From Neoroseomonas marina (GTDB lineage Bacteria > Pseudomonadota > Alphaproteobacteria > Acetobacterales > Acetobacteraceae): a stretch of DNA of 64,000 nt. Where the stretch lies: assembly GCF_012927745.1 (NCBI RefSeq), contig NZ_JABBKX010000008.1, positions 1 through 64,000 of the forward strand. The letters run 5' to 3'. Below are positions 258 to 17,564 of this stretch, in pieces (within the stretch, counting starts at the first letter, position 1; every line of letters begins with the position of its first letter). Both the position numbers and the translations under genes were made by a program. Under the pieces are notes generated by a model. The model worked only from the letters and a program-made list of their open reading frames with translations. It had not been told where the DNA came from and did not search any database.

Positions 258-1364
258 TCATCGCGCCAATGCATCCCGCAAGGCACGAAGCCGCGAATCA
301 TCGAAGGGCCGCGTCGGGACCAGCCAACCGCCCTCATCATTCTCATTCCACGCGTAGATGAGACCCAGGCCCGCGGAGGCCTCATGGTTCCGCGACCAGT
401 CCCGACAGCGTGCGACGTGGGCGGCGATCTCGTCCGGCCGGCCCTGTTCGTAATAGAACTGCATGCCGGCCCCGGCGCGCTGCCACGCCTCCCACGGGAC
501 CGGATTGGCCACGCGCGGGCGGCGATCCCAGCCCGCCATGGCCGTCGGGACGACCTTGAAGCCCGTGCTCGCCATCTCGTCCCATCGGCGCTCCGCCAGG
601 GTGGCGAGGTCGGCATAGGGTGCGCCGGCGGCACGGCCATCCGCGATCGTATAGGCACCGAGCGCATCGGCGCCGATCTGCCTCGCGAGGCCGGCCAGTT
701 CGGGGCGCGCCATCAGCACGAAGAAGGGATCCGCCGCACCGGCGTCGCGGGCAGCCGCGCGGAAGTCGCGGACGGCGGACTGAAGACCCTCGGGTCCGCC
801 CCATCGCTCGACGACCAATCGCTCGCTGACGAAGCCGAGGAAATAGACGGGGCGGCCGTCCGCGGTCCGGAGATGGTCGGGCGACCGCATCAGGGTCGCG
901 TGCTCGCGGATCAACGCCGCCGGCTGCGCCGCGGTGCCCCAGTTGCGCAGCTCGCAGATCATGCAGAAGCGCATGCCGTCGCGCGCCTGGCTGCTGAGGA
1001 ACAGCTCCAGGCCCCGCGACATCGCGCTGCCGCGCGGGTAGGCGACGAAGGCGAAGAAATCGAGATGCGCGGACCGCGCCAGGGCGATCTCCCGGTCCAT
1101 CACCTGTTGCGCGCTGCCGTCGATCCGGATCGACCCGTTGCGGTCGACATCCGCGAAGAAGGGCAGCCGGCGTCGGTACTCGGCGGGCGACAGGCTCCGC
1201 TCGACCGCCTTTGTCGTCGGGCTTCCGGGCGCCTGCCAGGCATCCCAGCGGATCGCCCCCATCAGGACCTGCCGGGCCGCCCGCCCTGGCCGCGGCGCGA
1301 GCCAGCCGGCAACGCCGCCGGCAAGGACGGCACGCCGCGACAGCAGGAGGCCCGGCTTGGTCAT
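258..1364 (-). CDS. Secreted GH99-like (WbsX-type) domain protein
   Basis: This 368-residue protein begins with an Arg-Arg signal ([21 protein letters not shown], roughly residues 6-26) that looks like a Tat export signal, so it probably acts in the periplasm or at the surface. The rest resembles the glycoside-hydrolase-99-like fold found in WbsX proteins of polysaccharide clusters: an early Trp/Asp segment (MGAIRWDAW), a central region about animal-like TIM-barrel length, and a late [15 protein letters not shown] segment corresponding to the NxWNEW(x)EG signature. Substrate and reaction are unknown; an endo-acting or glycan-trimming role is only inferred. The start codon overlaps the stop of the pyruvyl transferase gene by four bases (ATGA), indicating translational coupling. 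It is the second GH99-like protein of this locus, the other being a domain of the protein at 3163-7035, but this one is exported and stands alone. Confidence 0.7.
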
Positions 1365-2667: not shown

Positions 2668-3111
2668 TCACGCATCCTCGAGAGCGCGCTTCCACTGCAA
2701 TGCGTCGGCTTCGTAGCGCGGGCTCGGGCTGCGCCATTCGGTGGCGCCGGCCATCGCGAAATGCTCCCGCGCCGAGCCGAGCCGTCCGGACTTCACGGCA
2801 CTGGCGACATCCGGATAGGAGCGGAGGTACCAGCGCTCATCGACCTCGGGCGTGCCGCCCTGGCGGCCCTCGAAGTAGCCGAAGCCGATGTAGTGCAGCC
2901 GTGCATTCTCGATCGACCCGGAACGCACCGCGTCCGCGACGTCCGGATTGGCGGCGAGATAGCCGGCTTCGTTGAAGTCGCCGTTGGCGACGGCGATCTG
3001 GAGAAGGAAGCGGAAGAGCTTGAGCGGCACGGTGACGCCGGTCTCGTTCTTCAGGGCTTCGCGCGACGTGCCGATGCTGTGCAGCACAGTGTCATAGGGC
3101 GGGATGTACAT
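2668..3111 (-). CDS. Small NPDV-repeat protein
   Basis: The 147-residue product has no signal peptide. After an N-terminal ~50 residues it carries two copies of a roughly 42-residue repeat: GYLAANPDVADAVRSG...HYIGFGYFEGR and WYLRSYPDVASAVKSG...HFAMAGATEWR. The same repeat (YLaxxPDVxxxG...HFxxxGxxEGR) occurs about five times at the N-terminus of the large protein encoded immediately upstream at 3163-7035, and similar repeats are known at the ends of RTX proteins and glycosyltransferases of alphaproteobacteria. Function is unknown; a protein-protein or glycan-binding module is a reasonable guess. The start has an AAGGAG ribosome site. It lies within the minus-strand surface locus and may be a loose adaptor subunit for the repeat-bearing transferase. 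Confidence 0.75.
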   Translation of the reverse strand: MYIPPYDTVLHSIGTSREALKNETGVTVPLKLFRFLLQIAVANGDFNEAGYLAANPDVADAVRSGSIENARLHYIGFGYFEGRQGGTPEVDERWYLRSYPDVASAVKSGRLGSAREHFAMAGATEWRSPSPRYEADALQWKRALEDA

Positions 3112-3162: not shown

Positions 3163-6100
3163 TCATGATCCGCGGCTCTTTGTGCGGCGCGTGCTGCGCC
3201 GCTTGCTGCGCGGTGATGGCGTCGGCGCACCGAGCTGCGCCGCCACCTCCGCCAGATAGGCGCGCTGCGCTTCGGCCGATCCCGTCGATGCCGGGAAGGC
3301 ATCGCGGGCGAAGGCCTGGCACAGGGCGATTTCCTCGACATGCCGGCCGGCATCCAGCGCGTGCGTCACGCTGCCGCCATGCCGCCGATGCACGTTCAGC
3401 GGCGATGCCTCGTAGGCGACGCGGGCACCGGGCGCTGCCAGCGCCTGGAGGTACAGCCGCCAGTCACCGGCCATGCGGAAGTCGCGCAGCGCCTCGCCGC
3501 AGGCGTCCATGGCCGCGAGCAGCGCGTCGCGACGCCAGACCACGGCGCTGACGTTGAGGACGAGGTTCTTCACCGACAGGAAGCGGCCGACGAACTCCTC
3601 CGCCGTGAACACTTCGCTCCGCGCCAGGGCGCCCGGTCCCAAGGTCGCATAGTACTGCTTGTAGTCAGGCCACATCGCCTGGCCATCCGCGTGGACCGTC
3701 CGGCTGTCGGTGAAGGCGAACCGGATGGCCGGGTCCTCCCGCATCCGCGCGGTCGCGCGCAGCAGGAAGTCCGGGTCGCTGAGGTCGTCCGCTTCGGCGA
3801 TCCACAGGAACTCGCCCTTCGCCAGCTCCGCCGCCTTGCGCCATTGCGCGAAGACCGATCCGGAGTTCTGCTCGTTGGGCTCGAGGCGGATCTCGCGCCG
3901 GTGCCGCGCCGCGACGGCGCGGATCACCTCGAGGCTGTCGTCGGTCGAGCAGTCATCGAGGACGATAACCTCGTTCACCGGCAGGCTCTGCGCGAAGATG
4001 GAGCCGAGCCGCTCGGGCATGTAGCGCGCGTAGTTGTAGTTCGGCACCGCGACCGACACGGACGGCAGTTCCGGCACGGCCATGTGCAGCAGGTCCCGCA
4101 CATAGGGGCGCCAGCCGAAATGGCGCGCTGCAAGGCCCTGCCGCGTGGCGCGGCCACGGCGGCGTTCCTCGTCGTCGTGGCGCGCGCGAATGGCGCCGGC
4201 CACCGCCTCGGACATCGCGGTCACGTCGCCATAGGGCACCACGATGCCGGTACCCGTGCGCGCGAGCAGCCCGGGAATGCCGCCGCTGCGTTCGAACGCG
4301 ACGACCGGCAGGCCGACGGCCAGGGCTTCCAGCGCGACGGACGGGAAGGGATCCTCGCGCGAGGTCAAGGCATAGGCATCGGCCGCCCGCAGGAAGGCGC
4401 CGACATCGTCGCGCCGCCCGGGGACATGAAAGGTGCCGGTGGCCTTCGCGTCGGCGATCTCGTCGCCGAGCCAGCCTTCCATCGCCGGATCCATGCCGCC
4501 GAGCCAGCACAGATGCACGCGATGGCGGCCGCGCCAGCGCAGCAGGCGCCAGAGCTGGAGGAACAGGTCGAAGCCCTTGCGCATGTCCGCATAGCCGATG
4601 CCGAGGACAAGCCGGTCGTCCGGTCCGATGCCGAACTCCTCCCGGATCCGCTCCTCGGCGCCCGCGGGTGCCGTCACATCCTTGTAGATCCCCTGCGGTC
4701 GCAGCACGCAGCGGTCGTCCGCGGCGAGGCCGAGAAGGCCCAGCACCTCGTCGCGCACGAAGGGGGCGGGGAAGACGACCTTCTGCGCCGCACCGATGCC
4801 GGCCCGCGCCGCGGATTCGAGGTGCTTTTCGCGGATCAGCCGCGGCAGCTCGTGCACCAGCAGCGTCGCGGCAATCCCCGCCGCGCGCAGCGCCGGCACG
4901 GCATGGCCCGAGGCCGTCGTGTTGACGATGGCGTGGCGGAAGCCGCGCGCCGCAAGCGCACCGATCCGCGCCGCGGCGGCCGCGGCATCGGCGACCACCG
5001 TCGTCGGGGCGACGCGCCGATAGGCCGGTTCCAGCGCACCACCGCCGAGCAGCAGGACCTCGATCTCGCAACCGTAGGTGCGGCGCAGGGTCGTCGCGAT
5101 GGACAACAGCAGCTGCTGCGCGCCGCCGGGGAAGGCGTCGTGGCCGACCAGCAGGAGGCGCGGCGGCACGTCCTCGCCCAGCCGCGTCACGCCCGTCACC
5201 GCCCGGCCCGTCGCGTTCAGGTAGGCGCTGCCGAAATGCAGGTCGGGTTCGAGATAGGCGCCCTCGCACCATTCGTTCCAGGCGTTGACGCAGACGAAGG
5301 CCTCGCCGTGGAAGGGGTGCTCGCCGGCCTGTTCGATCAGCGCCGCGAGCCAGGCTTCGTACTTCGCCGGCGTGCTTCCCGTGATGGTCAGCCCGTTGCC
5401 CTGCCGCCGCGCATCGTTGTCCCAGGACGGCACCGCCGTCCGGATCAATGGGAAGTCGGGCGTCTTCTCGTCGAGCGAGACGCGCACGACGTCCTCGTAG
5501 CGATAGACCTTGCCGGTGAAGTCGGCGTCCAGGATGTCGAGCCCCGTCGCGATCGGCTCGAGATTCTGCGTGAGCTTGTGCGGCGGAAACTCGATCGCGC
5601 CGTCGAGGCCATAGGGCCGCGGATCCACGTCGCCGAAGCCCTGCGCCATGACGAGCAGAGGTTCTTCGCCGTGCCCCTCGCGGAACAGGTGCCGCCAGCG
5701 CGCGATGGTGGACTTGGCATCCGGGATCAGCGCGGGCCGGTACACCATCAGCAGCGGCCGGCCGCCGACGCGGATGTAGCGGGGGTCGGCGAAATGGCGC
5801 GCGAACTCGGCGACCATGCGCTCATCGTCGTCGGGCCGGTAGTCCTGCGAGATCAGCACCTCGCTCTCCGCGCCGTCCCAGCGCCGGGTCCAGTTCTCGT
5901 TCGCCCACATCAGGGCGAAGGGCATGTCGATCGACGGATCGGCGAGGAAGCGCTCGACCGGCTTCTCGAGCAGCCGGGTGCCGTTGAACCAGTACCAGTA
6001 GAAGACGAAGCCGTGCACGCCGCCCGCCTTGGCCATCTCGACCTGGCGGCGGAAGGTCTCGTTGCCCTCGAGGGAATAGAATCCGAGGTCCCGCGGGACG

Positions 6101-7035
6101 CGCGGCTGATAGTGCCCCTGGAAGCGGGGCATGCCGCGCGGCACGTTGGTCCATTCCGTGAATCCCGTGCCCCACCACGCGTCGTTCTGCGGGAAGGCAT
6201 GGAACTGCGGCAGGTAGTAGGTGAGCAGTTTCACTCGCCGCGCCGCATCGCCCGGCAGCGGGCGGAATTCCTCGAAGTCCGGACCTGGCCGCGTGAAGCG
6301 GCGCACCTCGCGCGGGATGGTCGGCTCGTCGTCGGGCATCCGGCCGTGAACGCCGGGTTCGTGCCGATGCGCCAGCCAATGGGCGAAGGGATTCTCCGAC
6401 AGGTCGCCGCGGAGGTAGCGTTGCGCATAGAAGCGCACGTCGAAGGCGGCCGACGGGTTGCGTCCTTCGCGGTAGCCCTGGGTCCAGAAGTGCTCGAACG
6501 GGTCGATGCCCGCGGCGGCCACGTCCGGATTGCGGCCGAGGTAGTAGTCGACGTCGAATTCCTGGAGCGGGCTGAAGCGGCCGGTCTCGCGATGCTTCAG
6601 CCAATGCGCCAGTGCGATCTCGCCGGCCGCGAGCTGGTACTGCGCGCGATACCAGGCGGGGTCGAAGAAGGGGCTGGGCCGACGTCCCTCCGCCTCGCCA
6701 TGGAAGGCGTAGTGGAACAGCGGGTTGAGCCCGCCTTCCATGACGTCCGGATGCTGCGCGAGGTACCAGAGCGGATCGAAATACGGGTTCGGCCGGCGGC
6801 CTTCCGTGTAGCCCTGCTCGATGAAATGCGCGAAGGGCTCGACGCCCGCCGCGGCGATGTCCGGATGGGCGGCCAGGTAGTAGGCCGCATCGAACAGCCC
6901 GCTGTGTTCCAGCACCGCAAGCCGCTGCGGATCGGCCTCCATCGCGGGCACAGGCAGCAATTCGGCGAGACGGACGGGCGTGCCCGGTCCGGCCCCGCGA
7001 CGCCGTTCCTCGAGCAGGGCGAAGAATTCCGTCAT
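3163..7035 (-). CDS. Four-part glycan enzyme: NPDV repeats, WbsX/GH99-like, GT4 and GT2 domains
   Basis: A 1290-residue cytoplasmic protein without signal or membrane helices. Approximate layout: residues 30-235, five repeats of the YLaxHPDIxxxGVxPFxHFxxxG type; 255-610, a WbsX/GH99-like domain with YYLPQFHAFPQNDAWWGTGF at its start, FYWYWFNG in the middle and NAWNEWCEG near its end; 625-975, a GT-B (GT4) glycosyltransferase with SREDPFPSVALEALAVGLPV as the nucleotide-sugar-binding E-x7-E region; 985-1240, a GT-A (GT2) transferase with PNYNYARYM, LDDCSTDDS and EADD motifs. The tail is basic (SPRSKRRSTRRTKS). The upstream frame is open to 7755 but that part is opposite-frame shadow of the HlyD gene; ATG 7035 is the first sensible start. 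It presumably adds and trims sugars of one glycan; acceptor and sugars are not predictable. Confidence 0.88.
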   Translation of the reverse strand: MTEFFALLEERRRGAGPGTPVRLAELLPVPAMEADPQRLAVLEHSGLFDAAYYLAAHPDIAAAGVEPFAHFIEQGYTEGRRPNPYFDPLWYLAQHPDVMEGGLNPLFHYAFHGEAEGRRPSPFFDPAWYRAQYQLAAGEIALAHWLKHRETGRFSPLQEFDVDYYLGRNPDVAAAGIDPFEHFWTQGYREGRNPSAAFDVRFYAQRYLRGDLSENPFAHWLAHRHEPGVHGRMPDDEPTIPREVRRFTRPGPDFEEFRPLPGDAARRVKLLTYYLPQFHAFPQNDAWWGTGFTEWTNVPRGMPRFQGHYQPRVPRDLGFYSLEGNETFRRQVEMAKAGGVHGFVFYWYWFNGTRLLEKPVERFLADPSIDMPFALMWANENWTRRWDGAESEVLISQDYRPDDDERMVAEFARHFADPRYIRVGGRPLLMVYRPALIPDAKSTIARWRHLFREGHGEEPLLVMAQGFGDVDPRPYGLDGAIEFPPHKLTQNLEPIATGLDILDADFTGKVYRYEDVVRVSLDEKTPDFPLIRTAVPSWDNDARRQGNGLTITGSTPAKYEAWLAALIEQAGEHPFHGEAFVCVNAWNEWCEGAYLEPDLHFGSAYLNATGRAVTGVTRLGEDVPPRLLLVGHDAFPGGAQQLLLSIATTLRRTYGCEIEVLLLGGGALEPAYRRVAPTTVVADAAAAAARIGALAARGFRHAIVNTTASGHAVPALRAAGIAATLLVHELPRLIREKHLESAARAGIGAAQKVVFPAPFVRDEVLGLLGLAADDRCVLRPQGIYKDVTAPAGAEERIREEFGIGPDDRLVLGIGYADMRKGFDLFLQLWRLLRWRGRHRVHLCWLGGMDPAMEGWLGDEIADAKATGTFHVPGRRDDVGAFLRAADAYALTSREDPFPSVALEALAVGLPVVAFERSGGIPGLLARTGTGIVVPYGDVTAMSEAVAGAIRARHDDEERRRGRATRQGLAARHFGWRPYVRDLLHMAVPELPSVSVAVPNYNYARYMPERLGSIFAQSLPVNEVIVLDDCSTDDSLEVIRAVAARHRREIRLEPNEQNSGSVFAQWRKAAELAKGEFLWIAEADDLSDPDFLLRATARMREDPAIRFAFTDSRTVHADGQAMWPDYKQYYATLGPGALARSEVFTAEEFVGRFLSVKNLVLNVSAVVWRRDALLAAMDACGEALRDFRMAGDWRLYLQALAAPGARVAYEASPLNVHRRHGGSVTHALDAGRHVEEIALCQAFARDAFPASTGSAEAQRAYLAEVAAQLGAPTPSPRSKRRSTRRTKSRGS

Positions 7036-7082: not shown

Positions 7083-8417
7083 TCAATCCCTCAGCGCGCG
7101 CCGCAGGCCGTCCGAGAGGGGCCGCAGCACGTAATCGAGCGCCGTGCGCTTCTCGCCGAGGACGAATGCCTCCACCGGCATGCCCGGCGCCAGCGTCGAC
7201 CCGGCCGGCAGGCGCGCGGCGACCTCGGGGGAGACCGCGATGCGGGCGAGGAAGAAGGCGTTGCCCTGCTGGTCGATCTGCCGGTCGGCCGAGACGTAGA
7301 TGACCTCGGTCTCGATCAGCGGCACTTCCCGCGTGCGGAACGCCACGAGGCGCAGGCGGGCCTGCTGGCCGACGCGGACGTTCTCGACATCGTTGAGCGC
7401 GAGGCGCACCTCGGCCACCAGGCGGTTGTCGAGCGGAACGAGGTCGAGCACCGGCTGGCCGGCGGCGATGCTGCTGCCGGGGGTGAAGAAGCGGATGTCG
7501 GTCACGATGCCGGCCTCCGGCGCCCGGGCGACGCGGCGCGCCAGGACTTCCTCGGCACCGCGCAGGCGCTGTTCGGCATCGGCACGCAGGGCCTGGGCCT
7601 CCTGGAGGTCGCGCGCGACTTCCTGCTGGCGGTTCAGGCGGGTGTTCGCCATCTCGAGTTCCGCCTGCAGGATGCTTTCGCGCGCCTGCGCTTCCTGCGC
7701 CTGGTACTGGCCCAGATTGCCGACGAGCTCGGCTTCGGCGCGCTGCAGTTCCCATTGCCGCGTGCGCGTCGCATAGCCGCGGGTGACGAGCTGGCTGACG
7801 CCGCCCAGTTCCTCGCGGATCGCCTGGAGGCGCACCGCCGTCGCTTCCTTCTGCGCGGCGTAGGCGGCCATCTGGCCCTGAAGCTGCGCGATTCGCGTGC
7901 GGTTCACGCTGATCGCGCCGTCATAGGCCTCCCATCGCGCCGCATAGAGCCGCGTCTCCGCCTCGATCAGCGAGGCGATCGACGGATCCGCACGGCCGGC
8001 GTCGCTCGCGCCTTCGGGCAGCTGCATCTCGCGGCTGTCCTGCCGTTCGGCGATCAGGCGCGCGGCGCGCACGGACTGCGCCCAGAAGACGGCCCGCGCC
8101 TGCGCGGCAGCGGCATCGGCCTGGGTCGTATCGAGGCGCAGCAGCGGCTGCCCTTCCACCACCTGTTCGCCTTCCCGTACGAGCAGGCTGCGCAGCAGCC
8201 CGGCATCGAGCAGCATCACCGTCTTGCGGCGACTCTCCGCGACGAGCGTGCCCTGGCCGATCACCGCGCGCTCGATCGGGGTCACCGCCGCCCAGCCGAG
8301 GATGCCCCCGGCACCGACGGTGAGCACGACGAGCGCCGTCGCCAGCAGGCGGCCGAGCTTCGGAGGCGGCAGCGCCGCATCGAAGGCTGCTTCGAGGGCG
8401 TCGGCAGCAGCGCTCAT
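7083..8417 (-). CDS. HlyD-family type I secretion membrane-fusion protein
   Basis: The 444-residue product is the periplasmic adaptor of a type I secretion system (PrtE/AprE/HlyD family) that bridges an inner membrane ABC exporter and a TolC-like channel. It has a short cytosolic N-terminus, one membrane helix (about residues 27-50, LLATALVVLTVGAGGILGWAAV-like), a lipoyl half-motif (GTLVAESRRKTVML...LLVREGEQVVEGQPLLRL), a long coiled-coil section rich in Ala/Gln/Glu/Arg (about 90-290), the returning half-motif GIVTDIRFFTPGSSIAAGQPVLDLVP, and a C-terminal beta domain ending with MPVEAFVLGEKRTALDYVLRP. Start ATG 8417 overlaps the ABC gene stop (ATGA). It follows two ABC genes and precedes the large glycosyltransferase, so the exporter sits in the middle of the glycan locus. 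No outer membrane partner is encoded in the window. Confidence 0.93.
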   Translation of the reverse strand: MSAAADALEAAFDAALPPPKLGRLLATALVVLTVGAGGILGWAAVTPIERAVIGQGTLVAESRRKTVMLLDAGLLRSLLVREGEQVVEGQPLLRLDTTQADAAAAQARAVFWAQSVRAARLIAERQDSREMQLPEGASDAGRADPSIASLIEAETRLYAARWEAYDGAISVNRTRIAQLQGQMAAYAAQKEATAVRLQAIREELGGVSQLVTRGYATRTRQWELQRAEAELVGNLGQYQAQEAQARESILQAELEMANTRLNRQQEVARDLQEAQALRADAEQRLRGAEEVLARRVARAPEAGIVTDIRFFTPGSSIAAGQPVLDLVPLDNRLVAEVRLALNDVENVRVGQQARLRLVAFRTREVPLIETEVIYVSADRQIDQQGNAFFLARIAVSPEVAARLPAGSTLAPGMPVEAFVLGEKRTALDYVLRPLSDGLRRALRD

Positions 8418-10081
8418 CGCAGGACCTCCAGTTCCCAGGCGCCGTCGCCATGCAGGCGCAGCACACGGTCCGCCGTGCCCGACCACGCGCGGGGATCGTG
8501 GGACACGAGCAGCAGAGCGCTGCCCTCGGCGCGCACCTGAGCGACGCCTTCCCGCAGCGCGGCGCGGGCGGCGCCGTCGAGCCCGGCTTCGGGCTCATCG
8601 AGGACGATCAGACGCGGGGCGCCGTGGAAGGCGCGTGCCAGCGCCACCAGCCGCGACTGCCCGCCCGACAGGCCGGCATCGGGCCCGGCGCCGTTCTCGT
8701 AGCCGCGCGGCAAGCGGCCGATCGCGGCATGGGCGCCGACGCGGCGCGCCGCCGCCACCGCGACCTCGGTGTCGCCACCGGCAAAGCGGCCGACATTCTC
8801 GATGACGCTGCCTTCGAGCAGCTGCGGTTCCTGCGGCAGGTACCCCAGGCGCGGGCCGATCTCGGCACGCGGGCTGCGCAGCGTGTCGTGGCCATCGAGC
8901 AGCACGCGTCCGGCTTCGGGCTCGGCGAGGCCGAGCAGCGCGCGGATCAGCGTGGTCTTCCCCGCACCGTTGCGCCCTGCGAGGACGAGGATGCCGCCGG
9001 GCGGCAGGATGAAGGACAGGTCCTCGACCAGCGGGCGCGGCGCGCCCGGCGCGCGGATGGTCAGGTCCTGCACCGCGAGGCCGGGCGGTGCGGCGGGATC
9101 CGGCGGCACCGCGGCGGGAGGGCGGCCGCGATGCGCGATGTCGACCAGCCGCCGGGCCGCCGCGATGCCGAGGCTCCAGTCCCGCCAATGCCCGACCAGA
9201 TGCACCACGGGGCGCGTCGCGAAGTTCACCATGGTCGCGGCGGCGAGCATCGAGCCCGGGGAGATCTCATGGCGTAGCAGCAGCCAGACGCCGGCACAGA
9301 CGATCGCGATCTGCTGCAGGAAGGTCGCGAATTCGAGCAGCCCGGCGAGCGCCTGCGCCTGGCGTTCGGCGGCGCCTCGGGTCCGCATCGCCTGGGCCTG
9401 GGCCGGCGCGAAACGGCCGAGCACGGCCGGCAGCAGCCCGAGGCCGAGCACCATGTCCCGCTGCGTCAGGCGGCCGACGAGGTCCCGCCGGGTCCGCGCC
9501 TCGTCCGTCGTCGCCGTCGAGACGACATCGCGCGTCGTCCGGTCGGCGAGCACGCCGAGCGCTGCCTGCAACAGCGCGGCGATCAGGGCCACGGCGAAGA
9601 ACAGCGGATGCAGCAGCCACAGGAACCCCAGCGCGACCGGGATGGAGAGCAGGTCGAGCACGTCGGCCGGCACCGAGCCGCCGAGCATGCGGCGCAGCTC
9701 GGCCACGTCCTGCAGCGCGCGGCCGGCGGCGACCCGGTCCCCGTCCAGGGCGACGCGCACCGTGGCCGCGAGCGCGCCGAGCTGCAGGCGTCGGCCGACC
9801 CGCTCGGCCAACCCGGCCAGCAATGCGGCGCGCAGGTGGCGCAAGGTGCCGCCCAGCAGCAGCGCGATCAGGAAGGCGAGGGCGAGCACCCACAGGCTGT
9901 CGAGGTTGTGGCTTTCCATCACGCCGTCGAAGGCGTGCATGGTCAGCAGCGGCGTCGTCAGCATCGTCGCCTGGATCGCCACCGACAGCAGGATGCAGAC
10001 CGCGAGCACCGGGGCCACCGAGGCGGGGGCTCGGCGGGGCAGGCGGCTCGCAGGTGCGGGCAGGCGCAGCGTGGCGCTCAT
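8414..10081 (-). CDS. Type I secretion ABC half-transporter, canonical ATPase motifs
   Basis: A 555-residue PrtD-type exporter subunit: membrane domain over about residues 20-310 (six predicted helices, for example VLAVCILLSVAIQAT, LWVLALAFLIALLLGG and IAIVCAGVWLLL), then a nucleotide-binding domain with Walker A GRNGAGKT, Q-loop YLPQEPQ, signature LSGGQ, Walker B LIVLDEPEAGLD and an H-loop SHD. All catalytic residues are present. There is no peptidase C39 domain. The gene overlaps its neighbours at both ends by four bases (upstream ABC gene stop; downstream HlyD start). Because it lies directly after a second half-transporter of the same type, the two may form a heterodimer, while single-gene homodimers are the rule for PrtD systems. 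The likely cargo is the RTX protein at 15954-16754. Confidence 0.92.
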   Translation of the reverse strand: MSATLRLPAPASRLPRRAPASVAPVLAVCILLSVAIQATMLTTPLLTMHAFDGVMESHNLDSLWVLALAFLIALLLGGTLRHLRAALLAGLAERVGRRLQLGALAATVRVALDGDRVAAGRALQDVAELRRMLGGSVPADVLDLLSIPVALGFLWLLHPLFFAVALIAALLQAALGVLADRTTRDVVSTATTDEARTRRDLVGRLTQRDMVLGLGLLPAVLGRFAPAQAQAMRTRGAAERQAQALAGLLEFATFLQQIAIVCAGVWLLLRHEISPGSMLAAATMVNFATRPVVHLVGHWRDWSLGIAAARRLVDIAHRGRPPAAVPPDPAAPPGLAVQDLTIRAPGAPRPLVEDLSFILPPGGILVLAGRNGAGKTTLIRALLGLAEPEAGRVLLDGHDTLRSPRAEIGPRLGYLPQEPQLLEGSVIENVGRFAGGDTEVAVAAARRVGAHAAIGRLPRGYENGAGPDAGLSGGQSRLVALARAFHGAPRLIVLDEPEAGLDGAARAALREGVAQVRAEGSALLLVSHDPRAWSGTADRVLRLHGDGAWELEVLR

Positions 10082-11796
10082 GCGGCCCCCGGGCCTGCCA
10101 GGCGGCGGGCTGGTTGCGGCAGGGCCCGGGCGCGCTGGGCACCCGCGAGGAGCGCACGGCGGGCGGCGGGCTCGTCCAGGCGGCCTTCATGCAGCGTGAG
10201 GACGCGCCCCGCCGCGCGGACCAGGCCTTCGCGGTGCGAGGTGAAGATGACTGCCGTGCCGGCCGCGGCGAGCGCGGCGATCATGGCGAGGACGGCGGCT
10301 TCGCCCTCGGCGTCGAGATAGGCCGCCGGTTCGTCCAGCAGCACCAGGCGCGGCCGGCCATAGATGGCCCGTGCCAGCGCGATCCGCTGGCGCTGGCCCA
10401 TCGACAGCAGGTTGCGGCCGCCCACGCGCGTGGAGAAGCCGTGCGGCAGCCCGGCGATCATGCGCATCGCGCCGGCGAGTCGCGCCGCGGCGATCACCAT
10501 CTCCATGTCCGGCTTGTCGTCCAGCCGGGCGATCGCCTCGGCAACCGTCGCTTCGGCGAGCACGGGTTCCTGCGGCAGGTAGCCGATGTGGCGCGCGAGG
10601 TCCGTCCGATCCCACTGGGACGTGGCATGGCCGTCGAGCAGCACATCGCCGGCATTGCTGCCCTGGAAGCCCAGCAGCACGCGCAGCAGCGTCGACTTGC
10701 CGCAGCCGGGCGGGCCCGCGAGCGCCACGACGTCGCCCGGCGCCACCACGAGGTTCACGTCACGCAGCAGCGGGCGTGCCGCACCGGGCAGGACCAGCGT
10801 CACATGGTCCACCACGAGACGGCCTTCGGGACAGGGGAAGGCGCGGGTGCCGGCGGCCGGCGCCGACTCATCGGTCGCGAGCAGGCGTTCGAGCCGCCGC
10901 CAGGCCGCGCGCGAGGCGGCCGCGTCCTCGATCTGGCCGCCGATGCGGGAGAACGGATCCATCACCCGCGCCGTCAGGAGCAGCCCGGCCAGCAGGCCGT
11001 AGCCGGACGAACTGCCGCCGATCGCCAGCAGCACCCCGACCGCGACCGCCCCGCCCTGCGCCACGGCGTAGAGCGTCGCCGTCGCGGCCTGGGCGAGGCG
11101 CACGGTGCCCTGGGCGCGCCGCAACCCGCCGGCGCCGCGCGCCAGCATCGACGCCCAGCGGCCGACCAGCGCCGGCAGCATGCCCATGGCCTCGACCGCT
11201 TCGGCGGCACGGGCGGCGTCCGCCACGAGGGCCGCGCCGCGGGCGGAGGCATCGTTCACTTCCACCAGGGCTTCCCGCGTCGCCCGTTCGGCCGCCAGGC
11301 CGAACAGCAGGGCGAGGCCCGCCGCGGCGAGGGCGAAGAGGGCGAAGGCCCAGTGGAACACCGTCAGCAGGAGGAGGAGGGCGGGCACCAGCACGATGTC
11401 GAGCGCGACCGCCGAGAGCGGCCCCATGACGCCGCGACGCACACCCTCGATGTCGCGCAGCGCCTGTTCGGCCGCCGCTGCCGGCACGGCCGCACGCGCC
11501 GTCGCGGCAGCCATGGCGCGCGCCGTGAGCCGCCGCACGAGTTGTTCCGATGTCGCGAGCAGGATGCGTTGGCGCAGCGCCGTCAGGGCGACCGCCGCCA
11601 CCGCGACCAGGATGAAGCCGGCCGCCAGGCCGACCGCGGTCGGGATGCTGCCGGTCGGCACCACCAGGGCATAGAACTGGACCGTGACCAGCACGAGGGC
11701 GAACGGCCCCAGCGCCCCCGCCAGGCCAAGCAGGGCCGCCGCACGCGTGCTGCGTGCCAGCTCCCCTGCCAGTCCGGTCATGGCGGCGGAGGCCAT
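10078..11796 (-). CDS. Type I secretion ABC half-transporter with altered signature motif
   Basis: A 572-residue ABC exporter subunit, membrane domain (about residues 20-315) plus ATPase domain. Walker A is GPPGCGKST, Q-loop YLPQEPV, Walker B LVLLDEPAAYLD and H-loop TSHRE, all intact, but the signature reads LSMGQ instead of LSGGQ. In a heterodimer this weakened signature would face the Walker A/B of the partner encoded next door (8414-10081), giving one normal and one modified ATP site, as known for asymmetric ABC exporters. ATG 11796 is used because it follows the previous stop by two bases; the open frame upstream of it (to 12240) has no ABC resemblance and overlaps another gene. The stop overlaps the next ABC gene start by four bases. 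Confidence 0.9.
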   Translation of the reverse strand: MASAAMTGLAGELARSTRAAALLGLAGALGPFALVLVTVQFYALVVPTGSIPTAVGLAAGFILVAVAAVALTALRQRILLATSEQLVRRLTARAMAAATARAAVPAAAAEQALRDIEGVRRGVMGPLSAVALDIVLVPALLLLLTVFHWAFALFALAAAGLALLFGLAAERATREALVEVNDASARGAALVADAARAAEAVEAMGMLPALVGRWASMLARGAGGLRRAQGTVRLAQAATATLYAVAQGGAVAVGVLLAIGGSSSGYGLLAGLLLTARVMDPFSRIGGQIEDAAASRAAWRRLERLLATDESAPAAGTRAFPCPEGRLVVDHVTLVLPGAARPLLRDVNLVVAPGDVVALAGPPGCGKSTLLRVLLGFQGSNAGDVLLDGHATSQWDRTDLARHIGYLPQEPVLAEATVAEAIARLDDKPDMEMVIAAARLAGAMRMIAGLPHGFSTRVGGRNLLSMGQRQRIALARAIYGRPRLVLLDEPAAYLDAEGEAAVLAMIAALAAAGTAVIFTSHREGLVRAAGRVLTLHEGRLDEPAARRALLAGAQRARALPQPARRLAGPGAA

Positions 11797-11798
11797 GG

Positions 11799-12509
11799 TC
11801 AGCGGGCAAGCCCGCCCGCAACCGCCAGCGCGGCAACGCCGGCCGCGACGAGCACCAGCACGAGGACGATCGTCCACCCGCCCTGGCGGCGTCGCGGCCG
11901 CACGGCGGGTGCCGGCGTCGGCAGGGCGGCGAGCCGCTCGTCCAGCCGGGTCATCCACAGCGTCAGGGTCTCGACCTTCTCCGCCAACTGCCCCTGCGTC
12001 CGCAGGAGGGAGTCGAGCTGTCCCCGATCCCCGCCCTCGGGCACGCGGGCGGCGATGCTGCGGATATCCTCGTGCAGGCGGCGCTGGCCCGCCGCGACGG
12101 CCTCGACGGCGCGCTGCAGGCCGCCATCGGACAGCGGCTGTTCCTCGGCCGCCGGCCTCGGGATCCGGACCGGGACGGGCATTTCGGTGCCGTCGGCGGC
12201 GCGGGCCAGGACGGCAAGATCCGCGCGGCGGCGGATCCATTCCGGCTGGAGCGGAATCTCGAAGGCATGGCAGCCGTCTCCGATCCCCGCCTTGGCGAGG
12301 TCGGGCCGCGCGAAGTCGGCGACCGTGCGGAACACCACCTCGCTGCCGAGGCGGATCTCCACCACCACGCGTTCATCGGGCGCGGAGGCGTTCCACACCC
12401 AGCCGTACAGGCGATCGGGTGTCGCGTTGTCGACCAGGCCGCGAAGTTCGGTGGTGCGCGCGGACGCGCCTTCAGGCCGCGACAGGGTCGGAGCTGTCTC
12501 GGATGGCAT
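11799..12509 (-). CDS. Beta-domain / coiled-coil protein with C-terminal membrane anchor
   Basis: The 236-residue product starts at ATG 12509 behind GGAAGGAGGA and overlaps the end of the GT4 gene by 38 bases. Residues ~20-100 (GLVDNATPDRLYGWVWN... VVVEIRLGSEVV ... GIGDGCHAFEIPL) match a small beta domain often found in, or next to, alphaproteobacterial glycosyltransferases and type I secretion loci. Residues ~135-200 are Gln/Leu/Arg-rich with heptad-like spacing, likely a coiled coil, and a basic stretch PRRRQGG precedes one C-terminal membrane helix (TIVLVLVLVAAGVAALAVAG). It would therefore sit on the inner membrane with its domain in the cytoplasm. Function unknown; tethering glycosyltransferases to the exporter encoded downstream is a plausible inference. 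Confidence 0.75.
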   Translation of the reverse strand: MPSETAPTLSRPEGASARTTELRGLVDNATPDRLYGWVWNASAPDERVVVEIRLGSEVVFRTVADFARPDLAKAGIGDGCHAFEIPLQPEWIRRRADLAVLARAADGTEMPVPVRIPRPAAEEQPLSDGGLQRAVEAVAAGQRRLHEDIRSIAARVPEGGDRGQLDSLLRTQGQLAEKVETLTLWMTRLDERLAALPTPAPAVRPRRRQGGWTIVLVLVLVAAGVAALAVAGGLAR

Positions 12510-13761
12510 GCTCTGTCCTCCTTCCGGTGACGGGGGAGAGGGTTCGATAGAAGGCGAGGTGCTGCGCCGCGGCGGCCCCGAAATCGGGCGGTGCGACGAT
12601 GCCCTCGACGAGCCGCTGCCAGAGGCCCGGTGTCTCGATCGCGTTGCGCAGGACGGCGGACAGCCCGGCGGCGTCGCCGATCGGGGCCAGCAGCCCATCG
12701 ACGCCGTCGCACACCAGCTCCGCCATGCCGCCAGCATTGCCGCAGATCACCGGCCTGCGATGGCGGAAGGCCTCGAGGATCACGAGCGGCGCGTTCTCCC
12801 ACCAGATCGACGGCACCACGACCCAGTCGGCGGCGGCGATCCGCGCGGCGAGCTCGCCGGCGGCATAGGCGCCGTGGTGGGCGGCGTCGGGCGCCGCCGT
12901 CAGGGCTGCGGCGAACTCCGCGCGGAAGGCGTCCGACTGCCAGGCGGTGCCGCCATGCACAGCGAGGCCATGCGACACGCCGTCGCGCGTGAGGCGCGCC
13001 GAGGCGTCGAGCGCGACCAGCGTGCCCTTGAAGCGATTCACGTTGCCGAAGACGGCGAAGCGGTCCCGTCGGCCGTCCGCGGGCAACCGGTGCGGCGCCG
13101 GCGCGGCCGCGGCGACGGCATTGCCGAGGATGTGGAAGCGATCCGCATCCCATCCGGCGGCGACGAAGCGGTCACGCAGGAATCGGCTGGGCGATACCAG
13201 CGCGTCGAAGGCCGTGAAGGCGCCGCGGATGCCAAGGTCGCGCAAGGCGAGATCGCCGGGTGCGCGGTCGGGCAGGCAGGTGCGGCACGCATCTTGCGCC
13301 GGCCCGGCGCAGCGCCGGCCGTCGGTCGTGAGCAACTGGCCCTCGCGTGGGCAGATGCAGAAATAGTCGTGCAGGGTCGCGACCATGGCCGCCCGCGGCG
13401 CGGCACGGCGCAGCATGTCGATGCCTTCCATGCCCCACAGCAGCGGGTGATGCAGATGCACGACATCGGGGGCGAGCCGCTCGATCATCGGCGCGATCGC
13501 GGCCAGGCCGTAGACGTCGCCCTGCGACAGGTAGAAGCGGTCGAACTCGTCCAGCGAGACGAGCATCTCGTCGGCCCTGTCGCCCGCGGCCTGCAGCAGC
13601 GTGCCGGGACGCCGTTCGCGCAGCAGGGCGGTGACCCCGGCCAGGAAGAGGCCGTCGGCGCCGTGCTCGTCGCGCAGCGCCCGGAACAGGCCGAGGGCGA
13701 AGGCCTCGGTGCCGCCGGGCTGCAGCGCCGGATGGTTGTGGGTGAGGAACAGGACGCGCAT
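12472..13761 (-). CDS. GT4-family glycosyltransferase
   Basis: A 429-residue GT-B fold transferase. The N-terminus MRVLFLTHNHPALQPGGTE is typical, with the GG loop that binds acceptor or nucleotide sugar; residues ~105-150 hold the VVHLHHP motif and a Cys-rich loop (CICP, RRCAG, DACRTCLP) seen in a GT4 subgroup; the C-terminal half has FGNVNRFKGT and WWENAPLVILEAFRHRRPVI, the E-x7-E donor-binding region. No signal peptide or membrane helix, so it acts at the cytoplasmic face. It starts only four bases after the stop of the GT2 gene and its end overlaps the membrane-anchored protein gene. Sugar donor and acceptor cannot be told from sequence. Confidence 0.9.
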   Translation of the reverse strand: MRVLFLTHNHPALQPGGTEAFALGLFRALRDEHGADGLFLAGVTALLRERRPGTLLQAAGDRADEMLVSLDEFDRFYLSQGDVYGLAAIAPMIERLAPDVVHLHHPLLWGMEGIDMLRRAAPRAAMVATLHDYFCICPREGQLLTTDGRRCAGPAQDACRTCLPDRAPGDLALRDLGIRGAFTAFDALVSPSRFLRDRFVAAGWDADRFHILGNAVAAAAPAPHRLPADGRRDRFAVFGNVNRFKGTLVALDASARLTRDGVSHGLAVHGGTAWQSDAFRAEFAAALTAAPDAAHHGAYAAGELAARIAAADWVVVPSIWWENAPLVILEAFRHRRPVICGNAGGMAELVCDGVDGLLAPIGDAAGLSAVLRNAIETPGLWQRLVEGIVAPPDFGAAAAQHLAFYRTLSPVTGRRTEHAIRDSSDPVAA

Positions 13762-13765
13762 CGGG

Positions 13766-15901
13766 CTATCCCGCGCCGTGGCGCGCCATCAGCGCCGCGA
13801 TGGCGCCATCCCAGCGCCGGTGATGCAGGCGGCGATTGATCGCCCCCGCGAGCGTCCTTGCATGCCCATCATGGAGCGCGATGGACTGGCGCTCGAAGTG
13901 AAAGAGCTCCGCGTCCGGCTCGTAGGCGATCTCGTCCCCCTGCGTCCGCAACTTCAGACAGAGGTCGGAATCCTCGAAGTCGCCGACGATGTAGTCGGTG
14001 CAGAACCCGGCGACCCGCTCGAAGGCGGCGCGTCGCACCAGCAGCGCCGCACCCGTGATGGCGGGCACGCGGCGCGCCGTGAGCGCGTCGGGATGACGAC
14101 GCGGGAAGCCCTTGCAGTAATGGTCGTTCAGCCAGACGCCGTCCTCGCCGCGCCGGAAGAACAGTCCCGCATGCTGGATGGATCCCTCGTCGAACAGCAG
14201 CCGCGGGCCCACCGCCGCAAGGCGTCGGTCGCGCCCCAGCCGCGCGAGCATCACGCCGAGCCACCCCGGCGCCGCCGGCAGGACGTCCGAATTGAGGAAG
14301 AGCAGGGCGGGGGCCAGGGCTTCGGCAGCGCCGGCGTTGCACGCCGCGGCGTAGCCGCCGTTGCGCGGCATCACCACGAGCCGCAGGGGCAGCCCGTGCA
14401 TCGCCGCCATGCCGCGCAGCAGGTGCTCGACCTCATGCCGCTGTTCCGGGCTGTCGAGCACGTAGATGAGATCCGCGCGGCGCGTCTCCTCGTCGCGCGC
14501 GAAGGCGGCGAGCTGGAAACGCAGGAAGCGCAGGTTGCGGTAGAGTGGCACGACGAGGCTGGCGCGCGGACGGCTGCGCCGCTGCGGTCCCAGCGCGACA
14601 ACCTCGGCCGTGCCGGTGGCGGAGCGGCGAGCGGCAACGTGCAACGCGGCCGCGGCGGGGCCGATGCAATCGTCCAGCAGCGCCGGGGTCACCGCCGAGG
14701 CGTGGACGGCCCGCAGCACGAGGTCGCGCGCCACATGCGGCGGCATCAGCCCGGGCGGCGCCGCGACCTCGACTTCGGTGCCGCCGGTGAGCCTCGCCGC
14801 GAGGCGCCATTGCGCGGTGCCGGCCGGATCGGCGCCGGGGAGGTACGCGACGAAGCCCGGCCGGTCATCGGCCTGTCCGAACGGCGCGGTCGCGAAGCGG
14901 CGGAGGATGTCGGGCCTCGGCACCCGATTCAGCCCGGCCGCGGCCAAGGGCAGCGAGCGTCCGGGCGCCCGCAGTTCGAGCGATGCGATGAGGCCGAGGG
15001 GATCGCGCAGCCAGCCGCACAGGAAGACGCCGCCGGCGTGATCGGAGAGCGCGAGGTCGAGGCCCGCGCCGATCGGACGTGTCGGATCCGCGACGCGTGT
15101 GGGACGGGATGGCGCGAGGAGCTGTGCCTCCCGCAGGACGCTCGCCGCGCGGGCATCGTTCACGGCGCGCGTCGCCAGGGCGCGCAGCAATGCCGGCGCG
15201 CGCCTTCGCCCTGCGATCGCATCGCGCGTGAGCGTCGACAGCGTCGCCGCGCCCTTGCGCGCATCGAGCCGGACCGGCCGGGCCGGCGCGGGGGGAAGAA
15301 GGATGGCGTCCGCGTCGTGCGCCGCGTCGAGCAGCATCACGCGCCCGGTCGGGCGGCCGGCGCGGCGCAGCGCGTCATCGGACAGGAGGCGCCAGACGCC
15401 GTCCGGCGCCTGCGGGACCAGCCAGGCCGACAGGCCGTTGCTGGGCGCCGCCAGGCACGGCGCGGGATCGGCGGCGTCCACGAGGGCACGGCAGAGGGCC
15501 GACAGGCCGGGATCGGCCGAGGCGCGCAGCATCGTGGCGCAGGTCACGGCGAGGAAGCGGAGTACGGCGTCGCGGTCCGCGCCGGCGAAGCCTTGCGCGA
15601 ACGCCGCCGGGTTCAGGGGTTCGGAGAGGAGGAAGGCACCCAGCCTCTCCCCGCCGATGTGCAGGATCGCTTCGTGCCCCGCGGCCGCCTGCATGACCTG
15701 CCGCGCCGCATGGATGAGGCGCGGCGCCTGCGGCGAGCCGAGAAGCAGCGATGCGCTGGGTGGGGGCAGGGGACGTCCGGCGACGGTCAGCGCCGTCGCG
15801 CCGGCCGGCAGCGGTCCCGCCAGCGGCAGGTCGAGCAGCATGATGCCGCCGGGTGTCAGGGCCAGCCGCGGCATGCCGCCGGCATCCTGCCAGGGGGACA
15901 C
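13766..15901 (-). CDS. GT2-family glycosyltransferase with long N-terminal region
   Basis: This 711-residue protein has a C-terminal GT-A (GT2) transferase domain, about residues 430-680: RASLVVPLYRNLRFL, RNGGYAAACNAGA, FLNSDVLPA (metal/donor-binding Asp) and GDFEDSDLCLKLR. The first ~400 residues are Ala/Leu/Arg-rich with beta segments such as AGGVFLCGWLRDPLG and GFVAYLPGAD, resembling the extra domain of other alphaproteobacterial GT2 proteins; no function is known for it. The start is either GTG 15901 (used here) or ATG 15874 (MPRLALTPGG); neither has a strong ribosome site. The gene follows the RTX gene by 52 bases and precedes the GT4 gene by four, placing it in the same transcription unit. 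Confidence 0.85.
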   Translation of the reverse strand: MSPWQDAGGMPRLALTPGGIMLLDLPLAGPLPAGATALTVAGRPLPPPSASLLLGSPQAPRLIHAARQVMQAAAGHEAILHIGGERLGAFLLSEPLNPAAFAQGFAGADRDAVLRFLAVTCATMLRASADPGLSALCRALVDAADPAPCLAAPSNGLSAWLVPQAPDGVWRLLSDDALRRAGRPTGRVMLLDAAHDADAILLPPAPARPVRLDARKGAATLSTLTRDAIAGRRRAPALLRALATRAVNDARAASVLREAQLLAPSRPTRVADPTRPIGAGLDLALSDHAGGVFLCGWLRDPLGLIASLELRAPGRSLPLAAAGLNRVPRPDILRRFATAPFGQADDRPGFVAYLPGADPAGTAQWRLAARLTGGTEVEVAAPPGLMPPHVARDLVLRAVHASAVTPALLDDCIGPAAAALHVAARRSATGTAEVVALGPQRRSRPRASLVVPLYRNLRFLRFQLAAFARDEETRRADLIYVLDSPEQRHEVEHLLRGMAAMHGLPLRLVVMPRNGGYAAACNAGAAEALAPALLFLNSDVLPAAPGWLGVMLARLGRDRRLAAVGPRLLFDEGSIQHAGLFFRRGEDGVWLNDHYCKGFPRRHPDALTARRVPAITGAALLVRRAAFERVAGFCTDYIVGDFEDSDLCLKLRTQGDEIAYEPDAELFHFERQSIALHDGHARTLAGAINRRLHHRRWDGAIAALMARHGAG

Positions 15902-15953: not shown

Positions 15954-16754
15954 TCAGACGATCTTCACGTAACTGGACAGATTGCTGAGCAGGTCTTCCG
16001 TGGACACGCCGACCAGCTTGATCTGGTCGCCGTCGCCGAGGCTGATCACGGCGCCGGTGTCGTCGCTGGAGATGCGACCGACGAGGTCCTGCGCGCTGGT
16101 GATGCCGCTGCCGTTGATGTTCGCCTGGATGGCGATGACATCCTCGCCAGGCCGGAAGTCCAGCACGACGTCGCGACCGAAGCCGCTCTCGAAGTAGAAG
16201 GTGTCTTCCCCGGTGCCGCCCACCAGCGTGTCGGCCCCGGCGTTCCCGGCCAGGAAGTCGCTGCCGGCGCCACCGAACAGCAGGTCGTTGCCCTGCCCAC
16301 CGATCAGCACGTCGTTGTCCGCGCCGCCATCGAGCAGGTCGTCGCCGCGCCCGCCGAACAGGACGTCATTGCCGTCCTGGCCGAAGAGGTAGTCGCCCGA
16401 GGGCGGCCCCGCGCCGTCGCCATGGCCAGGCCCGTGTCCGTGGCCGTTGTCGGGGCCATGGCCCTGACCCTTGCCGTGACCCTGGCCATTCTCATGGCCG
16501 CGTCCCGGATGGTCATCGCGGTCCTTGCCATGTCCTCGGCCGTGGTCGTCGTCGTCGCGACCCGGTCGGCCCCGACGCGCTTCGTCACCGCCGAAGACGA
16601 TATCGTCCCCCTGACCGGCGAAGACAGTATCGGAGCCGCCAAATGTTGCGATGAGATTGTCGAAGCTTCCGGGTGCGTCCCGATCAGCGTCGACGAGGTC
16701 GGATCCGTTCGTCCCAAATATTTGCCCGCCAGGCAGTGTTGCGAAATCGGCCAT
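15954..16754 (-). CDS. Small RTX protein with His/Gly/Asp-rich insert (likely type I secretion cargo)
   Basis: A 266-residue acidic protein without N-terminal signal. Nonapeptide Ca-binding repeats occur in two blocks: one near residues 38-54 (GGSDTVFAGQGDDIVFGG) and a larger one at ~120-190 (GQDGNDVLFGGRGDDLLDGG, GGQGNDLLFGG, GNAGADTLVGGTGEDTF). Between them lies a ~65-residue low-complexity stretch made almost only of G, H, D, R, P, K and N (repeats such as GHGKGQGHGP and NGHGHGPGHGDG). The C-terminal 75 residues form the beta-rich domain typical of type I secretion substrates and end in SSYVKIV, a hydrophobic tail like known export signals. The ATG is three bases after the regulator stop with GGAAGGA inside the regulator's last codons. 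It is much shorter than most RTX adhesins, and no enzymatic domain is visible; a Ca- and metal-binding surface protein is the best guess. Confidence 0.88.
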   Translation of the reverse strand: MADFATLPGGQIFGTNGSDLVDADRDAPGSFDNLIATFGGSDTVFAGQGDDIVFGGDEARRGRPGRDDDDHGRGHGKDRDDHPGRGHENGQGHGKGQGHGPDNGHGHGPGHGDGAGPPSGDYLFGQDGNDVLFGGRGDDLLDGGADNDVLIGGQGNDLLFGGAGSDFLAGNAGADTLVGGTGEDTFYFESGFGRDVVLDFRPGEDVIAIQANINGSGITSAQDLVGRISSDDTGAVISLGDGDQIKLVGVSTEDLLSNLSSYVKIV

Positions 16755-16757
16755 GGC

Positions 16758-17564
16758 TCAATCCTTCCCGTTAGGAGCTTTGGTCCCGTGGACCTGAGCG
16801 ATACTACTATAGGTTGTCCCCGGGGGCGGCGGAGTGAGAAGTTTGTGCGGAGCACAAATTTCCACATGAGCGGGTGTGAAATCGATCGCGATGGTCAGCG
16901 CGTAACCCACGTTGCGCACCGACTGGATCGCATTCGGCGGCAGCTTCCGACGCACGCGCTTCACGAGGCTGTCGACCGCACGATCATCCGGACGCCACGG
17001 TCGTCGGAAGACACGTTCGCTGATCGCGTAGCGATCGACGGGTTCGCCGCTCGCGGAAGCGAGAGTCGTCACGAGCGCGTACTCCGCGCTGGTGAGTCGC
17101 TGCGGTTCGGCGTTCGGCATCTCGAGCATGCGGCCCGATGCGAGGAGCCGCCAGTTGAGCGTGGAGAGCGTGCCGCGTGTACGCCGCAGAAGAGCTTGGA
17201 TTCGCGCAACGATCTCGCTCACCGGCATCGTCGCGTTCAGCACCTCGTCCGCACCGGCCTCGAGCGCATCGACACGATCCTGCGCGGTGTCGTCCGGTGC
17301 CGCACGGATGACACAAGGCAGTGCGTGCAATGCGCGAAGTCGTTTGATGAGGGAAATGCCTCCGGGCGTCGTGAGCCGATGTGGAAGCAGAAGCAACACG
17401 GCCGGCGGACCGTTCGCCGCCGACCAGATCACAAACTCCGGACTCGTCGTTCGTTGCGTGCTGAGTCCGCTGTCAGTCAGACCTTCGACGAGAGCATGCG
17501 GCGGATCCGCATCGGCAGCGAGAATGAGGACGTCGCAGCGTGGCTTCCCGGTGGTGTCGTCCAT
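16758..17564 (-). CDS. OmpR-type winged-helix regulator with degenerate receiver domain
   Basis: The 268-residue product has a receiver-like domain (about 8-125) and a winged-helix DNA-binding domain (about 135-225: RLTSAEYALVTTLA, RAVDSLVKRVRRKL, VRNVGYAL). In the receiver the phospho-accepting Asp at the end of strand 3 is missing (AVLLLLPHRLTTPGG), the Thr/Ser of strand 4 is replaced (VIRAAPDD) and the Lys of strand 5 is absent (EVLNATMPVSE). This argues against control by a histidine kinase, and none is encoded nearby; ligand or redox control or constitutive dimerisation is possible. A ~40-residue Pro-rich tail follows the wing and overlaps a candidate promoter. It is the first gene of the minus-strand surface locus, three bases ahead of the RTX gene, so it probably controls that locus. 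Confidence 0.85.
   Translation of the reverse strand: MDDTTGKPRCDVLILAADADPPHALVEGLTDSGLSTQRTTSPEFVIWSAANGPPAVLLLLPHRLTTPGGISLIKRLRALHALPCVIRAAPDDTAQDRVDALEAGADEVLNATMPVSEIVARIQALLRRTRGTLSTLNWRLLASGRMLEMPNAEPQRLTSAEYALVTTLASASGEPVDRYAISERVFRRPWRPDDRAVDSLVKRVRRKLPPNAIQSVRNVGYALTIAIDFTPAHVEICAPHKLLTPPPPGTTYSSIAQVHGTKAPNGKD
16806..16858 (-). promoter_or_regulatory. Candidate internal promoter and palindromic operator before the RTX gene
   Basis: Inside the 3' end of the regulator gene, read on the minus strand, a perfect 7-base inverted repeat TTTGTGC-TCC-GCACAAA (16842-16858) lies about 30 bases upstream of TATAGT (16806-16811), five of six matches to the -10 box. No -35 box is seen at the usual distance; the palindrome would be centred near -50 from a start around 16799, the position expected for an activator site. 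The stretch is richer in A/T than its surroundings and the encoded residues are an unusual extension of the regulator. Confidence 0.4.

Follow-up and report, generated by a model that had tools for sequence, protein, structure and literature searches.

What a single polypeptide could do when it joins a repeat array, a glycoside hydrolase-like barrel and two glycosyltransferases, and why it is encoded amid the genes of a type I secretion system (T1SS), is the question raised by a locus of Neoroseomonas marina. The stretch of DNA analyzed here (the window) comprises the first 64,000 nucleotides of contig NZ_JABBKX010000008.1, and the protein in question, of 1290 residues, is encoded as a single open frame on the minus strand (3163..7035). 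The answer we favor, at a probability of about 0.6, is that this fusion acts as a cytosolic multi-enzyme, adding successive sugars, in an exopolysaccharide cluster related to that of the Sinorhizobium meliloti galactoglucan (EPS II).

Domain Organization of the Fusion Protein

The start site of the fusion is supported by relatives from the same genus, since these align with it from residue 1. In Pfam, the protein matched the WbsX domain (PF14307; residues 271-609, 5209..6225) over profile positions 2-350 of 350, with 417 bits against a curated cut-off of 25.1, followed by the C-terminal subdomain of a GT4 (GT-B) transferase (PF00534; residues 795-959, 4159..4653; 80 bits) and by a GT2 (GT-A) domain (PF00535; residues 994-1103, 3727..4056; 71 bits), all of them on the minus strand. 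The first-pass annotation, made from the sequence alone, had read the protein as repeats, a GH99-like WbsX domain and transferases of the GT-B and GT-A types, a reading that proved right by Pfam and by structure prediction with AlphaFold2 and Foldseek.

The fusion occurs in 8 of the 35 genomes of the genus, its own included (six of the others at 80-82% identity and one at 61%), as well as in 13 of 36 further genomes of the family, at 50-56% identity, with two more copies cut by contig ends. A scan of named genomes provided 76 loci, mainly from Neoroseomonas, Bradyrhizobium, Rhodopseudomonas, Microvirga, Methylobacterium and Falsiroseomonas, and 53 of these encode NPDV-WbsX-GT4 fusions, 48 of which also carry the GT2 domain. 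Because the same fusion recurs in more than 50 loci, a frameshift or gene-fusion artefact is ruled out, and the union of repeats, WbsX and two transferases in one chain is confirmed as an observation. Two close relatives lie on contigs titled Mycolicibacter and Mycobacterium. On a Lawsonia plasmid, WbsX and transferase pieces are split among neighboring genes near rfbC.

The NPDV Repeat and Its Carriers

Five NPDV repeats had been proposed ahead of the WbsX domain. A repeat profile of 37 positions, built from 55 seed units, indeed recovered five units on the minus strand, but only the fourth (residues 160-196, 6448..6558) is literally NPDV. The other two strong units, the first (residues 48-84, 6784..6894) and the second (residues 86-122, 6670..6780), read HPDI and HPDV, while the third (residues 124-152, 6580..6666) and the fifth (residues 198-228, 6352..6444) are degenerate and lack the PDx core, scoring 4-6 bits versus the 63-68 bits of the strong units. 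The same module does recur, as had been claimed, in the small protein of 147 residues encoded next (2668..3111, minus strand), which contains two units (residues 46-86 and 91-131).

Neither the fusion nor the small protein has a Pfam match in its repeat region, and a profile search among PDB sequences yielded no relative of the small protein or of the repeats-plus-WbsX segment. When modeled alone, the repeat array reached a pLDDT of 94.7, and Foldseek, whose prefilter can miss solenoids, found no match to it in the PDB (best E 2.6, TM at most 0.18). Foldseek also matched the array (window 6331-6909) weakly to glycosyltransferase and methyltransferase proteins of giant viruses (best E 4.8e-4, low TM), which is to be taken as a lead only.

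The loci carrying the repeat were chosen from matches to the fusion in the family scan, and the two classes in which they can be placed are a description and not a rate. The first class consists of RTX-nonapeptide proteins that end in about six units (seven loci); RTX-type proteins ending in such arrays include a subtilase and an M10-type peptidase, and the arrangement appears again on IMG/VR contigs. The second class is made of multidomain transferases, with the order methyltransferase-repeat-GT2-GT4 in three loci, methyltransferase-repeat-three GT2 in another (L068) and repeat-GT2-WbsX in a further one (L043). In addition, carriers from five loci have no Pfam domain and one from a sixth has only a marginal one. 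At an E-value of 1e-6, the repeat was found in 15 of 142 genomes drawn from the taxonomic class.

The repeat is the least known part of the system, and glycan binding is our leading guess for its function. A broader proposal, which we regard as tentative and rather doubtful, is that it might represent a previously undescribed family of all-helical solenoids. As a module for glycan binding or docking, shared by polysaccharide synthases in the cytosol and by RTX proteins secreted through the type I route, it would both hold the chain while it is made and retain proteins in the finished matrix. The module offers a connection between making a polysaccharide and type I secretion that can be tested.

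The Gene Cluster and Its Link with Secretion

The fusion gene is part of a series of genes on the minus strand. In the order of that strand, the series starts with a response-regulator-type DNA-binding protein (16758..17564), conserved in relatives, upstream of the gene for an RTX calcium-binding protein (15954..16754), identified by Pfam and by its similarity to WgeA/ExpE1 (47% identity over 154 residues). The remaining genes up to the fusion encode the following: a GT2 (13766..15901) 42% identical over 449 residues to WgeB/ExpE2; a GT4 (12472..13761) 39% identical to the GT4 that follows WgeB; a protein with a C-terminal membrane segment and an uncertain start (11799..12737), similar to a wge gene product; a PrtD-type ABC protein (10078..12240) whose true start is probably near 11799; another PrtD-type type I secretion ABC protein (8414..10081), homologous to WgdA/ExpD1; and an HlyD-type periplasmic adaptor (7083..8486), homologous to WgdB/ExpD2. 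After the fusion and the small repeat protein come a polysaccharide pyruvyl transferase (PF04230; 1361..2557) and a weak WbsX/GH99-like protein (258..1364; Pfam and motif), with a twin-arginine-type signal and an ExxE dyad (NENDE). Sequence and gene order place a NodO-like RTX gene, whose product is predicted to be secreted, and a dedicated T1SS beside a WgeB-type GT2.

Six other genomes of the genus show the same gene order over whatever part of it their stretches cover. A promoter scan found nothing, and terminator-like sites occurred at the level of shuffled sequence. No dTDP-sugar (rfb) genes are found among the cluster genes read, up to the contig end on the left. The same genome has a second glycan locus outside the window (G000:C26:300716-306049), with rfbC and another pyruvyl transferase.

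The linkage was counted in flanks of up to 10 kb around the 53 fusions, some of them on truncated contigs, in loci that are not phylogenetically independent. The small repeat gene lies directly downstream of the fusion in 28 of the 53, an RTX gene is present in 29, the T1SS pair (ABC plus HlyD) in 24, a pyruvyl transferase in 22 and rfb genes in 20. RTX or T1SS genes occur in 34, and since about a third have neither, and several members of the family lack any cassette genes, the link between fusion and secretion is frequent but not obligatory. The seven Falsiroseomonas-type loci mostly present rfb genes, a fusion with a divergent C-terminus, RTX, GT2, GT4, a membrane protein, two ABC proteins and HlyD, while in an Acetobacteraceae MAG the order is ABC, HlyD, rfb genes, fusion, small repeat protein, pyruvyl transferase and GH99-like protein.

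Such a neighborhood raises the alternative that the RTX protein, or another type I substrate, receives a glycan from the fusion in the cytosol and prior to export, with the repeats recognizing the substrate. The adjacency of RTX and T1SS genes to the fusion in many loci would fit this idea, as would the many RTX proteins of other loci that end in NPDV repeats. However, the repeat profile finds no NPDV unit in the RTX protein of the N. marina cluster itself (15954..16754), no acceptor motif was identified, and both the pyruvyl transferase and the parallel with S. meliloti point to a polysaccharide. We thus consider glycosylation of a secreted protein unlikely.

The WbsX Barrel and the Active Residues

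The AlphaFold2 model of residues 1-634, derived from an alignment restricted to window and genome-locus rows (plasmid-record rows were left out), had a mean pLDDT of 80.6. The repeats were confidently predicted as all helical and the WbsX part as alternating strands and helices, with a pLDDT below 50 in several loops, including that around the ExxE dyad. A Foldseek comparison of this model with the PDB placed GH99 structures at all ranks from 1 to 24, followed by GH71; the best GH99 match had an E-value of 1.1e-8, a TM of 0.57 on the target and an rmsd of 7.8, and identity to GH99 structures did not exceed 17%. Because these TM and rmsd values are modest, the claim is limited to a predicted GH99-like fold, as opposed to close kinship. 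The segment from 255 to 610 is, in any case, modeled as a barrel of enzymatic type.

The catalytic motif of GH99 is EW[H/G]E (PMC11025385), and the D/E-x-x-E dyad is also found in GH71 (PMC12394665). The fusion reads EWCE at residues 588-591 (5263..5274, minus strand), keeping both Glu and the Trp, with Cys at the third position. One set of 53 fusions keeps the ExxE dyad without exception, and a smaller set of 24 relatives keeps it in 23; in the smaller set, a full-length homologue (L037, G067:C38) reads NAWAEAA instead of NEWxEGA, possibly a natural loss of the first catalytic residue. The two other GH99 motifs tested, D[E/D]NGE and H[I/L]EPY, the first being mainly eukaryotic (PMC11025385), are absent from the fusion.

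As for the transferases, the GT4 motifs DPFPSVALE ([E/D]x7E) and KGFDL (providing the basic residue) and the GT2 acidic motifs LDDCS and EADDL are all present, so that the catalytic motifs of both enzymes are preserved. Most of the 53 fusions keep them, a few deviating in the GT2 motifs, and the C-terminal part of the Falsiroseomonas-type proteins aligns poorly or not at all with the fusion.

These data bear on the model initially put forward, in which one protein would contain both the transferases that build a repeat unit and the GH99-like domain that trims it. The dyad present in 53 of 53 fusions and the GH99-like barrel would be compatible with trimming. Nevertheless, processive building found no support: the QxxRW motif of processive GT2 synthases is absent from the fusion, which also has no convincing membrane segment (a single marginal hydrophobic window falls inside the GT4 motif region). 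Trimming fared no better, given that no GH99 family model matched the fusion among Pfam hits at E 0.01, two of three GH99 motifs are missing, the identity to GH99 structures is low and nothing shows that the barrel hydrolyses. Moreover, it would be wasteful to hydrolyse a product that is still being made, and the exported GH99-like protein encoded in the same cluster (258..1364) is a more natural candidate for trimming. This model appears even less probable than glycosylation of a secreted protein. Least probable of all is a role of the fusion in making O-antigen or capsule, its T1SS neighborhood in the genus being incidental. In favor of this, WbsX has a gene name of the O-antigen type, polysaccharide ABC exporters accompany a WbsX-GT4-GT2 protein in three loci (L146-L148), and the cassette is missing from several members of the family. 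Against it, the order of the cassette does not vary within the genus, and comparable linkages recur in Bradyrhizobium and Falsiroseomonas.

A Proposed Multi-Enzyme for Exopolysaccharide Synthesis

The best reading is thus that the cluster would be a variant of the known galactoglucan-like kind, as judged from gene content and similarity, with the fusion as its cytosolic multi-enzyme. The growing repeat unit may receive one sugar from the GT4 domain and a different one from the GT2 domain, and the WbsX barrel may use its ExxE dyad on the same acceptor, probably as a transferase or transglycosylase rather than as a hydrolase; this preference derives from its company (two transferases and surface-sugar clusters) and from the name given by Pfam. 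The helical repeat array, together with the small repeat protein, would serve to hold the glycan or to bring the enzymes together, decoration of the product would fall to the pyruvyl transferase, and, by analogy with ExpE1 in S. meliloti, the secreted RTX protein could be needed for production or export of the polymer.

Several points count against this exopolysaccharide reading: the S. meliloti cluster has no counterpart of the fusion or of the repeats, the N. marina cluster revealed neither a polymerase nor a flippase, and the RTX and T1SS genes could form a module that is reused in many contexts. Clusters for surface sugars often encode a WbsX domain, and our literature searches found no characterization of the activity of PF14307, nearly all matches referring to the filarial antigen WbSXP. 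Its stable fusion with two ordinary transferases offers a natural way to test whether such a GH99-like barrel can act in synthesis.

Comparison with Known Systems

The WbsX part of the fusion shares the barrel fold and the ExxE dyad with GH99 endo-alpha-mannosidases and with GH71, and differs from them in lacking a sequence-family match, the other GH99 motifs and an export signal, and in being fused to transferases. The cassette as a whole has a counterpart on Bradyrhizobium plasmids (e.g., pBb144S4b and pBoOO100), which encode RTX, the T1SS pair, a fusion at 58% identity and the small repeat protein (49-52%), joined in B. ottawaense by a pyruvyl transferase and a GH99-like gene. This cassette differs in its peptidase-type ABC protein, its extra SEL1-like and methyltransferase genes and the presence of rfb genes; no functional study of it was found in the literature searched.

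The closest known system is the exp/wga-wgd-wge cluster of S. meliloti, for which ExpE1 is reportedly required for galactoglucan; the title of the original ExpE1 study is said to leave open a role in biosynthesis or in secretion. The region of pSymB at 970-993 kb, whose record lacks gene names, was recognized as the exp cluster by gene content and order (PMC3233446, PMC1403797), and individual wge/wgd names were assigned from gene order and product. It contains a MarR regulator, dTDP-rhamnose genes, a T1SS and a calcium-binding protein. Both clusters have an RTX protein (WgeA/ExpE1; 47% identity), PrtD-type ABC (35%) and HlyD (34%) proteins, a WgeB-type GT2 (42%), a GT4 following it (39%) and pyruvyl transferases (27%). 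The S. meliloti cluster also has a glycoside hydrolase gene and, next to two pyruvyl transferases, a GT2-GT4 fusion of its own, although this fusion has the other domain order and does not align meaningfully with that of N. marina. In contrast, it has no WbsX, no NPDV repeats and no counterpart of the N. marina fusion, it encodes one ABC protein instead of two, its regulator is the MarR protein WggR rather than one of the response-regulator type, and its rfb genes lie inside the cluster. That polysaccharide synthesis is linked to type I secretion is known, but unexplained, in S. meliloti, and it is on this link that the repeat module described here bears.
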